Of a stretch of DNA of 64,000 nucleotides, positions 43,557 through 46,722 are shown piece after piece. Each line of letters starts with the position of its first letter. The stretch's first letter is position 1. Position numbers and translations under genes: made by a program. The notes under the pieces are model-generated. The model saw only the letters and a list, made by a program, of their open reading frames with translations. It did not search any database and was not told the DNA's origin. This stretch comes from Arthrobacter sp. AQ5-05. Lineage in GTDB: Bacteria; Actinomycetota; Actinomycetes; Actinomycetales; Micrococcaceae. The stretch is from positions 1 to 64,000 of the forward strand of contig NZ_QMKQ01000007.1 of NCBI RefSeq assembly GCF_003287975.1, given 5' to 3'.

Positions 43557-46073
43557 CTAGGAGGCCGGAACCACGTTGACCAGCTTCGGCGCGCGCACGA
43601 TCACCTTGGCTACCGCCGCACCGTCGAGGTAGCGCACCACGGCTTCGTCGGCCATGGCCAGGGCCTCGAGTTCCTCGGCGGTGATGTCCACCGAAACCTC
43701 CAGCCGGGCCCGGACCTTGCCCTTGATCTGCACCACGGCGGTGATGGTGTCCTCGACCAGCAGCGCCTCGTCCACGGCGGGCCATCCGGCGTTGGCGACC
43801 GAGGGCTCGTGCCCCAGGGCCGCCCACATGTCTTCGGCCGTGTACGGGGCGAAGAGCGAGAGGATGACCGCGACGGCTTCCGCGGCCTCGCGGACCGCCG
43901 GGTCCGACGCGCCGGCACCGGAGTCGATGGCCTTGCGGGTCGCGTTGACCAGCTCCATGGTCTTGGCGATCACGACGTTGAACTTGCCGGTGTCCAGCAT
44001 GCCGGAGGCCTCGTGCACCGCCTTGTGGGTGACCGAGCGCAGCGCCTTGTCACCGGTGGCCGGGTCGGTCCCCGGTGCGCTGGCAACATCCTGGGCCACG
44101 CGCCAGGCACGGGCCAGGAACTTCTGCGAACCCGAAGGGGAGACATCGGCCCAGTCCACGTCGTCCTCCGGCGGGGAGGCAAAGATCATGGTCAGGCGCA
44201 CGGCGTCCACGCCGTACTTGTCCAGCTGCTCGCCCAGGTCCACGCCGTTGCCCAGCGACTTGCTCATGGCCTTGCCGCCGTTGAGCACCTGGCCCTGGTT
44301 CAGCAGCGCGCTGAAGGGTTCGGTCACGTCGATCAGGCCCAGGTCGAAGATGACCTTGGTGAAGAAGCGCGAGTAGAGCAGGTGCAGGATCGCGTGCTCG
44401 ACGCCTCCGACGTACTGCCCGACCGGCATCCAGTCGCGCACCGCCTGCGGGTCGAAGGGACCCTCGGTGTAGTTCGGGGAGACGAAGCGCAGGAAGTACC
44501 AGGAGGAGTCCACGAAGGTGTCCATGGTGTCGGTGTCGCGCTTGGCGTCGGTCCCACACTTCGGGCACGGCACGTTGACCCAGTCCTCGGCGGCGGCCAG
44601 CGGGGAAGTGCCCTTGGGGGCCAGGTCCTCGCCGCGCAGGTCATCGGGCAGCCGCACCGGCAGCTGGTCGTCCGGGACCGGGACCTCGCCGCAGTGCCCG
44701 CAGTGGATGATCGGGATCGGGGTGCCCCAGAAGCGCTGGCGGGAAAGCAGCCAGTCGCGCAGGCGGAAGTTCACGAACTTCTCTCCGGTGCCGGCTGCCT
44801 CGACGATCTCGATGGCGCGGGCAATGCCCTCGGCCTTCGGCAGCCCGTCCAGCTCGCCGGAGTTCACCAGGGTGCCTTCGCCGGCGGTGGCAATGCCGGT
44901 TTCGGCCGGATCCTCGGCGCCGGTGTCAACGACCACGCGCACCGGCAGGTCGAAGGTACGGGCGAAGTCCAGGTCGCGCTGGTCGTGGGCGGGCACGGCC
45001 ATGATCGCGCCGGTGCCGTATTCGGCCAGCACGTAGTCCGCGGCCCAGACCGGCAGTTTTTCCCCGTTGAGCGGGTTGATGGCGTAGCGGCCGGTGAACA
45101 CGCCGGTCTTCTCGCGCTCGGTGGCCTGGCGTTCGATCTCGGAAAGGGCCTTGACCTTGTCCTGGTACTCCTCCAGCGCCTGGCGGTGCTCTTCGGTGAC
45201 CAGCTCGTTGGCCAGTTCCGCATCGGCGGCGACCACGAAGAAGGTGGCGCCGTGCAGGGTGTCCGGGCGCGTGGTGAAGACCGTGGTCTTGTGTGCTTCC
45301 CGGGTGTCGGTGGCCTCGACGATGAAGTCCACGTGCGCGCCCTCGGAGCGGCCGATCCAGTTCTTCTGCATGGCCAGCACGCGCTCGGGCCAGTGCCCGT
45401 GCAGCGCGTCCATGTCATCGAGCAGGCGGTCGGCGTAGTCGGTGATCTTGAAGTACCACTGGTTCAGCGATTTCTTGGTCACCGGGGTGCCGCAGCGTTC
45501 GCAGGCGCCGTTGACCACCTGCTCGTTGGCCAGCACGGTCTGGTCCTTCGGGCACCAGTTCACCGGGTGGTTCTTGCGGTAGGCCAGGCCCTTTTCGTAG
45601 AAACGGGTGAACAGCCACTGGGTCCAGCGATAGTACTCCGGGTCGGAAGTGTGGATGCGGCGTTCCCAGTCGGCGGAGATCGCGTAGCGCTTGAAGCTGG
45701 CGGCCTGGGTGTCGATGTTCGCGTAGGTCCACTCCGAGGGGTGGGCGTTGCGCTTGATCGCGGCGTTCTCGGCCGGCAGCCCGAAGGAGTCCCAGCCGAT
45801 CGGGTGCATGACGTCGTAGCCCAGCTGGCGCCAGTAGCGGGCGACCACGTCTCCCATGGCGAAGGCCTCGGCGTGGCCCATGTGCAGGTCGCCGGAGGGG
45901 TACGGGAACATGTCCAACACGTAGCGGCGCTCGGCACTGCCGTCGTCCTTGGGCGTGAAGACCCCTAGTTCGTCCCACACCGGAGCCCATTTGGCTTCCA
46001 TGTCCTGGAAGCTGTAGGCCGCTGCGGTGGAATCGTTGTCCGCGGTATCGGTGCCGGTGGGCTGAGTGCTCAC
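43557..46073 (-). CDS. leuS: Leucyl-tRNA synthetase
   Basis: An 838-residue class I aminoacyl-tRNA synthetase. The HIGH-type motif is HMGHAEAF (within [12 protein letters not shown]). An editing domain with [14 protein letters not shown] is inserted, a CPKCG zinc segment lies near residue 520, and the KMSKS loop reads AMSKS. The anticodon-binding and C-terminal domains follow. GTG 46073 was chosen because the conserved region begins soon after; the open frame upstream runs over the attenuator. Upstream are a leader peptide with three Leu codons and a hairpin with a T-tract, indicating control by charged tRNA-Leu. Confidence 0.96.
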
Positions 46074-46175
46074 TATCGTGTTTCGCCTTCTTTTGTCGTG
46101 CGCCTGTGGGGGAACGTCTCTTGGCCAGCTGAGCCGAGTGGGTGTGCCTGGCGCAAATGCCCGTGACACACAAAA

Positions 46176-46196
46176 GCCCCTTGGCAATCAAGGGGC
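46176..46196 (-). terminator. leuS attenuator terminator hairpin
   Basis: On the transcript strand, GCCCCTTG-ATTGC-CAAGGGGC is followed directly by TTTTGTGTG. It lies between the leader peptide and leuS and would stop transcription when leucine is plentiful. Confidence 0.7.
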
Positions 46197-46197
46197 G

Positions 46198-46223
46198 GCC
46201 GTACGGGGAGTATCCCGTACGGC
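46198..46223 (-). promoter_or_regulatory. Pause hairpin after the leuS leader peptide
   Basis: GCCGTACGGG and CCCGTACGGC form a perfect 10-bp stem with a six-base loop, beginning within the stop codon of the leader peptide. A ribosome at the stop would melt it, one stalled at the Leu codons may not. An antiterminator fold was not obvious by eye. Confidence 0.5.
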
Positions 46224-46249
46224 TAGGTTAGCAAGAGCGCAACGTTCAT
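46223..46249 (-). CDS. leuS leader peptide with three Leu codons
   Basis: The ORF encodes MNVALLLT and stops with TAG. The codons CTC, TTG and CTA are consecutive, use three different leucine anticodon boxes, and are rare types for this GC-rich genome (TTG and CTA especially). A -10-like TAGAAT lies about eight bases upstream, so the message is probably leaderless. Position and content are those of a leucine attenuator. Confidence 0.65.
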   Translation of the reverse strand: MNVALLLT

Positions 46250-46722
46250 GTGTTCAATTCTACCGCACGAACCGTGCGGGGTGCTGGTTCGTGTCCATCG
46301 CCACGCGTCGCCCGCTTCCCCGCTGCCTCCCGCCGGGTACGTCGCTCGTCGGCAGGTGCGCCCCGGTGCGTTTGGCTCCCGGGTGCCGGACGCCGTCCCA
46401 GCCAGGCGATCGCGCCCAGCACTCCGAGCACGCCGAGCACCGCATGGGTCGCCGCCGATGTCGCCCCGGGCCACAGCACCCGCAGGTGGAACGGCGGATA
46501 GGTCCCGCAGGTGGGATCGGGCCGGACCGATTGGCACACGTCGTTGGTCCCGAAAAGCACGACGCAGGCAGACAGGACCACGGCCGCCACCACCGCACCG
46601 ATCCCCGGATGCGTCGTGGACCGCACATGCCTCACGGCGGCCCAGCCGGCCAGGGCCACGGTCGGCGCGATGGCGGCGCCAAACTCCCGGGCACTGCGTG
46701 GCAATATCACGCTGGCCGGCAT
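46246..46722 (-). CDS. Small hypothetical membrane protein
   Basis: A 158-residue open frame with three hydrophobic stretches (AIAPTVALAGWAAV, IGAVVAAVVLSACVVLFG and AVLGVLGVLGAIAWLG) and a charged C-terminal tail of about 45 residues. Two cysteines (VCQSVRPDPTCG) sit in the loop between helices two and three. No domain is recognised and the ribosome site is weak. Its end overlaps the leuS promoter and leader. It could be a real gene or a by-product of high GC; it lies downstream of glpK on the same strand. Confidence 0.42.
   Translation of the reverse strand: MPASVILPRSAREFGAAIAPTVALAGWAAVRHVRSTTHPGIGAVVAAVVLSACVVLFGTNDVCQSVRPDPTCGTYPPFHLRVLWPGATSAATHAVLGVLGVLGAIAWLGRRPAPGSQTHRGAPADERRTRREAAGKRATRGDGHEPAPRTVRAVELNT
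46257..46262 (-). promoter_or_regulatory. Probable -10 box of the leuS transcript
   Basis: TAGAAT on the minus strand, seven bases before the leader ATG. This spacing places the transcription start at or next to the ATG. No good -35 was identified. Confidence 0.5.

Follow-up and report, generated by a model that had tools for sequence, protein, structure and literature searches.

The window, by which we mean the whole 64,000-nucleotide stretch of DNA analysed here, carries a leucine--tRNA ligase gene (leuS) on its minus strand, and a short leader adjoins this gene on the same strand (Table 1). A sequence-only reading of this DNA had described, with the strand unstated, a TAGAAT box seven bases before the ATG of a mini-ORF that encodes MNVALLLT with consecutive CTC-TTG-CTA codons, followed by a 10-bp hairpin beginning in the stop codon and an 8-bp hairpin with TTTT in front of leuS. 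Each of these elements is exact in the sequence, on the minus strand; the terminator was also called by an independent scan, and leuS was identified with TIGR00396. Hairpin 1 takes as its first base the G that ends the TAG stop codon of the leader ORF, and a single nucleotide separates it from the terminator hairpin, which together with its TTTT occupies positions 46196-46172. The GTG start of leuS at 46073 was picked by similarity and is a candidate, other in-frame starts being possible.

Table 1. Elements of the leuS leader and the gene behind it in the window
Feature	Position	Strand	Basis or remark
-10 box TAGAAT, leader promoter	46262-46257	minus	Sequence; 7 nt to ATG
Leader ORF MNVALLLT*, 8 codons, ATG AAC GTT GCG CTC TTG CTA ACC TAG	46249-46223	minus	
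Leu codons CTC, TTG and CTA	46237-46235, 46234-46232 and 46231-46229	minus	CTA is the fixed-position control codon
Hairpin 1, 10 bp, GCCGTACGGG-atactc-CCCGTACGGC	46223-46198	minus	Sequence and fold
Intrinsic terminator, 8-bp stem, GCCCCTTG-attgc-CAAGGGGC	46196-46176	minus	Independent terminator scan
T-tract TTTT and conserved GTGTGTC 3' of it	46160-46175	minus	Family form TTTT-nnn-TGTCCGG
leuS, leucine--tRNA ligase, GTG start 46073	43557-46073	minus	TIGR00396, E 5.2e-291, 967.7 bits (cut-off 548.4)

RNA spanning the leader ATG to the leuS start has a fold 3.3 standard deviations better (z = -3.3) than that of 200 shuffled versions. Searching both strands for a leader-type pattern (TANNNT, 6-7 nt, a start codon, at least three consecutive Leu codons and a 7-bp terminator) gave one occurrence in the 64 kb, which is the leuS leader, and none in 30 Markov-1 random windows. 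Rfam, with the T-box among its curated models, returned no gathering-score match in the window, and its only two matches in the leader region were at chance level (E 1.2 and 4.4).

That leucine leaders had been proposed in actinobacteria, as the sequence-only reading noted, is borne out by Seliverstov et al., who in 2005 predicted leuS attenuators in S. avermitilis and S. coelicolor (PMC1262725). A leaderless leuS leader of S. lividans, LeuL2 (MRAVRLLLSEPR), with a hairpin and a U stretch, was mapped from RNA-seq in 2021 (PMC8079986). Since the Streptomyces attenuators had been predicted and LeuL2 had been mapped, the kind is already known, and the window leader is another member of the known actinobacterial leuS attenuators. 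It resembles the Streptomyces elements in the gene, the Leu-run leader ORF, the leaderless start (predicted here) and the hairpin followed by a U stretch. By sequence, the window has the Streptomyces-type Leu-run mini-ORF with a -10 box 6-7 nt before its start, and likewise the hairpin followed by an intrinsic terminator with a U tract. The LeuL2 peptide is that of four leaders that we fetched (L132, L133, L165 and L166), in which a Leu codon, 6 nt and CCG follow one another. The two groups differ in three respects: the TAG that ends the window ORF immediately precedes the hairpin-1 CCG, but Streptomyces-type ORFs continue into this hairpin to a TGA stop; the control codon is CTA in the window and CTT in the Streptomyces type; and the LeuS proteins behind Streptomyces-type leaders are only 40-43% identical to that of the window over the compared part.

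The leader was surveyed in related genomes. Among 80 leuS loci from named genomes, picked by protein alone, a strict finder (TANNNT, a start codon and at least two consecutive Leu codons) recovered a leader at 45, and a finder that required a terminator and scored the Leu count recovered one at 54; L048, with only 12 nt of upstream sequence, stood outside the test. Neither of these Leu-using finders detected a leader at the leuS loci of Kocuria, Rothia, Micrococcus, Yaniella and Auritidibacter. Four Glutamicibacter-type loci (L003-L006) retain a single CTA codon, and L007 is without a Leu codon. Of 156 loci, some of them picked by the covariance model R1, a Leu-blind finder accepted 126; when the accepted regions were replaced by Markov-1 versions, it accepted 1 of 378.

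R1 was built from the window and protein-picked leuS loci only. It has one match in the window's own genome (E 6.1e-14) and finds both the window's group and the Streptomyces group, LeuL2-type leaders included. Matches were obtained in 114 of 197 family genomes, leaving 83 without one; all 12 genus genomes among those listed match, and 63 unmatched family genomes lie outside those listed. Across the class, R1 matches 160 of 393 genomes and 58 of 123 genera. A leuS homologue follows 46 of 55 fetched match regions, which were picked for spread over families and to include second matches, and all 29 loci returned with the class-wide search; two genomes (G415 and G407) occur in both sets. Conservation of the Leu codons and hairpins in relatives was the check that the sequence-only reading had proposed for a leucine attenuator, and the alignments uphold it: Leu codons and stems are kept, and in each of the 11 relatives fetched from the genus the leader has 8 codons, the fifth to seventh of which encode LLL. 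LeuS identity to the window protein, over the compared part, is 37-43% at 30 of 75 loci and 58-86% at the other 45. Two leuS genes of different types, L137 and L138, occur in genome G383; over the part compared, their products are 62% and 41% identical to the window LeuS, and a leucine leader precedes each gene.

For measurements at fixed positions, 115 leaders drawn from the 126 Leu-blind matches were brought into register by the hairpin-1 CCG. The set excludes L003-L006 (single CTA, another hairpin), L007 (no Leu), L012 (CTA) and L031 (CTG), as well as L013, L019, L021 and L024, which are CTT leaders for which the script chose another hairpin; two genomes are counted twice (L107/L158 and L111/L159).

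A sigma-70 promoter scan, in which both hexamers are required, found none at the leader, so that only the -10 box is seen. TANNNT lies 6 nt before the start codon in 92 of the 115 leaders, 7 nt in 22 and 5 nt in one, the finder having demanded a gap of 5, 6 or 7 nt. Inside the genus the box is conserved, and the DNA 5' of it diverges. As TAGAAT stands 7 nt before the ATG, the leuS leader transcript should begin at or beside that codon, and on this sequence evidence we predict it to be leaderless. A start downstream of the hairpins would speak against a leader of this kind; in the window, the interval from terminator to leuS lacks any -10-like TANNNT, and 10 of the 115 loci have one, in stretches that for some loci reach up to 60 nt into the gene. 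Two inverted repeats, CCGCAC-GGTTC-GTGCGG and CACGAACC..GGTTCGTG, lie at 46263-46295 on the minus strand, just 5' of the -10 box. Neither repeat is conserved genus-wide; the palindrome CCGCAC..GTGCGG occurs in the nearest relatives and was rejected as a part of the leader.

Hairpin 1 shows compensatory change. Hairpin 1 and the terminator are paired in 95.2% of the cells of a 45-sequence alignment, and 46 cells are changed on both sides; shuffles gave 9.1 such cells and slid controls no more than 15. Six of the eight scored pairs of hairpin 1 changed on both sides with pairing kept, and the terminator stem is paired in 98.1% of cells. Genus stems of hairpin 1 include CCGTAC/GTACGG, CCGCAT/ATGCGG and CCGTAT/ATACGG, with a mismatch in one relative (L167). 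RNAalifold on a MAFFT alignment did not recover hairpin 1. Its distance to the CCCC is identical in 83 of the 115 leaders.

Sequence 3' of the terminator is conserved as well. Counted from the last G of the stem, T stands at +9 in 106 and G at +10 in 98 of the 115 leaders, with TCCGG frequently next; this TGTC(CGG), at 46160-46171 of the window's minus strand, is conserved even though the transcript would be released there or before it. The TG step near the expected release site may fit the elemental-pause consensus, which makes it a lead. The motif GGGNTTTTNNNTGTC has four matches in the whole of the window's own genome against one for a backward control, and three matches in two of five other genomes; its absence from the remaining three means that it is too strict for the family. 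Pyrimidine-G steps near hairpin 1, scored as a sign of programmed pausing, fall at offsets 8-14 without a single peak.

The most constrained part of the leader ORF is one codon. In 101 of 115 leaders the codon that starts 9 nt 5' of the hairpin-1 CCG, with 6 nt intervening, is CTT; 6 leaders have CTC there, 3 have CTA, 1 has TTA and 4 have a codon other than Leu. The lone TTA (L056) reflects a CTT one base further away; three of the four non-Leu cases (L131, L134 and L150) are mis-registered and have CTT by eye, and L032 is truly without Leu at this position. Among 5234 Leu codons of the leuS genes next to these leaders, CTT accounts for only 2.4% and CTA for 0.3%. At the control position CTT stands in 38 of 46 protein-selected leaders and in 63 of 69 model-selected ones, so the covariance model is not the source of the bias. 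Pairing probabilities in the free fold are 0.40 for the first base of the control codon and 0.11 and 0.12 for the last two; these are thus mostly unpaired, and this makes selection on the codon itself more likely than selection on RNA structure. Spacing from Leu codon to CCG is the same whether the ORF ends at a TAG before hairpin 1 or reads into it.

Leu codons 5' of the control codon vary more, the preceding one being V, Q, P, E or R in some leaders. Within the genus the run is CTC-TTG-CTA in 10 of the 11 fetched relatives and CTT-TTG-CTA in one. ARAGORN, applied to 11 tRNA genes out of 57 matches, identified five as tRNA-Leu genes (anticodons CAA, TAA, TAG, CAG and GAG). The suggestion that three different codons let the leader sense several tRNA-Leu species stands in part: CTC, TTG and CTA would use different tRNAs, but only the last Leu codon is near-invariant, and sensing of three tRNAs by three codons, though possible, is not what conservation favours.

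Rare control codons have a precedent. The leu operon attenuator of Salmonella and E. coli is not known to be related in sequence to the leuS leader. It likewise uses rare Leu codons for control, and replacing its three CUA codons by CUG lowered sensitivity (PMC1183508); it serves another gene and, as described in that source, has three control codons where the leuS leaders have one near-invariant codon.

We folded the 115 leaders with and without a ribosome, masking everything up to 11 nt past the first base of the A-site codon. This edge of the footprint comes from E. coli toeprints. The mean pairing of the CCGC base of hairpin 1 was 0.956 with no ribosome, 0.951 with a ribosome one codon early and 0.137 with a ribosome at the control codon. 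In this masked folding, which had been proposed with the sequence-only reading, a waiting ribosome thus first opens hairpin 1 when it stands at the control codon. As judged by folding only, the leaders have control codons where a stalled ribosome opens the first hairpin, as in a classical attenuator.

A competing antiterminator is the defining part of classical attenuation. At equilibrium the terminator had a mean probability of 0.96-0.98 at every ribosome position, single leaders being near 0; it is formed wherever the ribosome sits, and the fold alone therefore predicts no switch. A classical three-hairpin scheme would add a deciding antiterminator, weak and short-lived, in which the 3' arm released from hairpin 1 pairs with the base of the terminator, as in the "fast attenuator" model of C. 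glutamicum ilvBNC, for which competition for a shared GCC trinucleotide was proposed as the decider (PMC11857589); for leuS of Streptomyces, Seliverstov et al. name an antiterminator hairpin as well as a terminator hairpin (PMC1262725). We looked at pre-occupation of the terminator 5' arm at the point where the 3' arm is not yet made. With hairpin 1 blocked this was 0.297, below the 0.473 of shuffled spacers, and 18 of 112 loci exceeded their own shuffled mean; for the first 3 nt of the arm the values were 0.316 and 0.575, and for the window the pre-occupation was 0.15. Pre-occupation is 0.14-0.15 with the ribosome at the two earlier Leu codons and 0.29-0.39 once it stands at the control codon or further on, a rise in the direction of a three-hairpin switch, but the ribosome-free state, which is expected to terminate, is equally high (0.287), so that the measure separates the states poorly. 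Values this low against shuffles leave a thermodynamically competing antiterminator unsupported, and these thermodynamic tests on the leaders found no structure mutually exclusive with the terminator. We consider the three-hairpin scheme unlikely. The leader thus agrees with an attenuator of the type named in the sequence-only reading as far as leader ORF, control codons and hairpins go, and the competing antiterminator which that type implies was not found.

Other branched-chain leaders of actinobacteria share much of this architecture, with a short ORF, branched-chain control codons, a hairpin and an intrinsic terminator. They include C. glutamicum ilvBNC, for which an antiterminator was proposed and CUU is among the control codons (PMC11857589), the ilvB uORF in Corynebacterium or ilvB-II motif (PMC10272879), and M. 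tuberculosis ilvB1, where attenuation was reported (PMC13236596). Their target gene differs, and an antiterminator is proposed in the ilvBNC and ilvB-II papers and left open in that on M. tuberculosis ilvB1, whereas none was found for the leuS leader. We infer that hairpin 1 gates the terminator either directly or by way of a short-lived switch such as the one proposed for C. glutamicum ilvBNC (PMC11857589).

Control could also act on leuS translation, through pairing of the leader codons with the ribosome-binding region of leuS, as proposed for the LEU element of leuA. That element is likewise a Leu-rich leader ORF of Actinobacteria, and it is described with a pseudoknot and with pairing of Leu codons to the Shine-Dalgarno sequence (PMC1262725); the pairing test fails for the leuS leader. 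The window's minimum free energy structure does join the leader's CUCUUG and GAACGU to CAAGAG and ACGUUC upstream of leuS, but this striking long-range pairing was rejected by shuffles, the energy of the leader-downstream duplex being that of shuffled sequence (z +0.37 in the window; mean z 0.02 over 112 loci, 7 of them at p <= 0.05). The distance from the terminator to the extrapolated LeuS start, moreover, ranges from 8 to 209 nt over 54 loci, and we regard this route as highly improbable.

A further possibility is that the leader is a constitutive brake, its ORF only setting basal readthrough with no sensing of leucine. This would agree with a terminator predicted in all ribosome states, and codon mutations in the S. 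coelicolor ilvB leader are reported to have had no effect (PMC1262725). A brake, however, needs no Leu codons, no near-fixed 6-nt spacing and no class-wide rare codon, and it leaves the Ile codons found before cimA (below) unneeded; it seems improbable to us.

Matches to R1 were also found in front of two other kinds of gene. Acetolactate synthase genes follow at L125, L127, L142, L147 and L148, of which L127 is incomplete and below the cut-off, and citramalate synthase genes follow at L123, L143 and L145. The leader at L142, MRFGILVLH, ends CTT-CAC-TAG before its hairpin, with similar spacing. Citramalate synthase is the entry to an isoleucine route. We examined cimA loci of another family, that of G458, taking the best 30 (L252-L281) of 35 matching genomes among 41, and asked for an in-frame start, Ile at no fewer than two of the three codons that lie 9, 12 and 15 nt ahead of the hairpin, and an abutting terminator, the -10 box being optional. 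An isoleucine leader with hairpin and abutting terminator precedes cimA at 23 of these 30 loci and occurs in 0 of 300 random controls. One such leader reads ATC ATT ATC AGC TAG and then enters its hairpin. ATT accounts for 22 of the 55 Ile codons at these leader positions, as against 4 of 330 Ile codons in the cimA genes. By analogy, this suggests that citramalate synthase may be controlled similarly to leuS, through an isoleucine leader. Full-text literature searches found no report of an isoleucine leader before cimA.

Taken with conservation of the Leu codons and both hairpins in related species, which supports the leucine attenuator first read from the sequence, we predict that the leader is very probably a leucine-responsive, ribosome-mediated transcription attenuator of leuS. 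Transcription would begin at or beside the leader ATG, and a ribosome would load on the 5' end of the transcript and translate the leader. When Leu-tRNA is ample, the ribosome would reach the stop codon and depart, hairpin 1 and the abutting terminator would form, and RNA polymerase would halt before leuS. When Leu-tRNA is scarce, the ribosome would stall once the last Leu codon, a rare one (CTA in the window and CTT in most relatives), occupies the A site. The front of the ribosome would then cover the CCG base of hairpin 1 and hold this hairpin open while the polymerase passes the terminator. An open hairpin 1, we propose, would let more transcripts run into leuS.

A broader proposal is more tentative, and as a whole we put it forward as possible rather than probable. 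It holds that the class shares an antiterminator-free design, in which a leaderless mini-ORF has one rare codon (CTT or CTA for leuS, often ATT for cimA) placed so that a waiting ribosome is just far enough along to open hairpin 1 at its base, and in which hairpin 1, by abutting the terminator, makes termination efficient. The same leader stands before two LeuS proteins about 40% identical, which would mean that the control element was kept or re-acquired across replacement of the enzyme.

A literature search for a leuS leader peptide in Micrococc- returned a match on histidine in C. glutamicum, and we found no description, in the portions of the papers available, of the spread through the class, of the rule on codon and spacing, or of the lack of an antiterminator. 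The prediction of leuS attenuators made for Streptomyces now reaches much of the class. The leaders offer testable rules, namely one control codon at near-fixed spacing, a rare CTT and abutting hairpins, and the rare-codon bias (CTT in 101 of 115 leaders against 2.4%) fits control codons chosen for sensitivity. That no competing antiterminator is detectable challenges the textbook scheme for actinobacterial leuS leaders.
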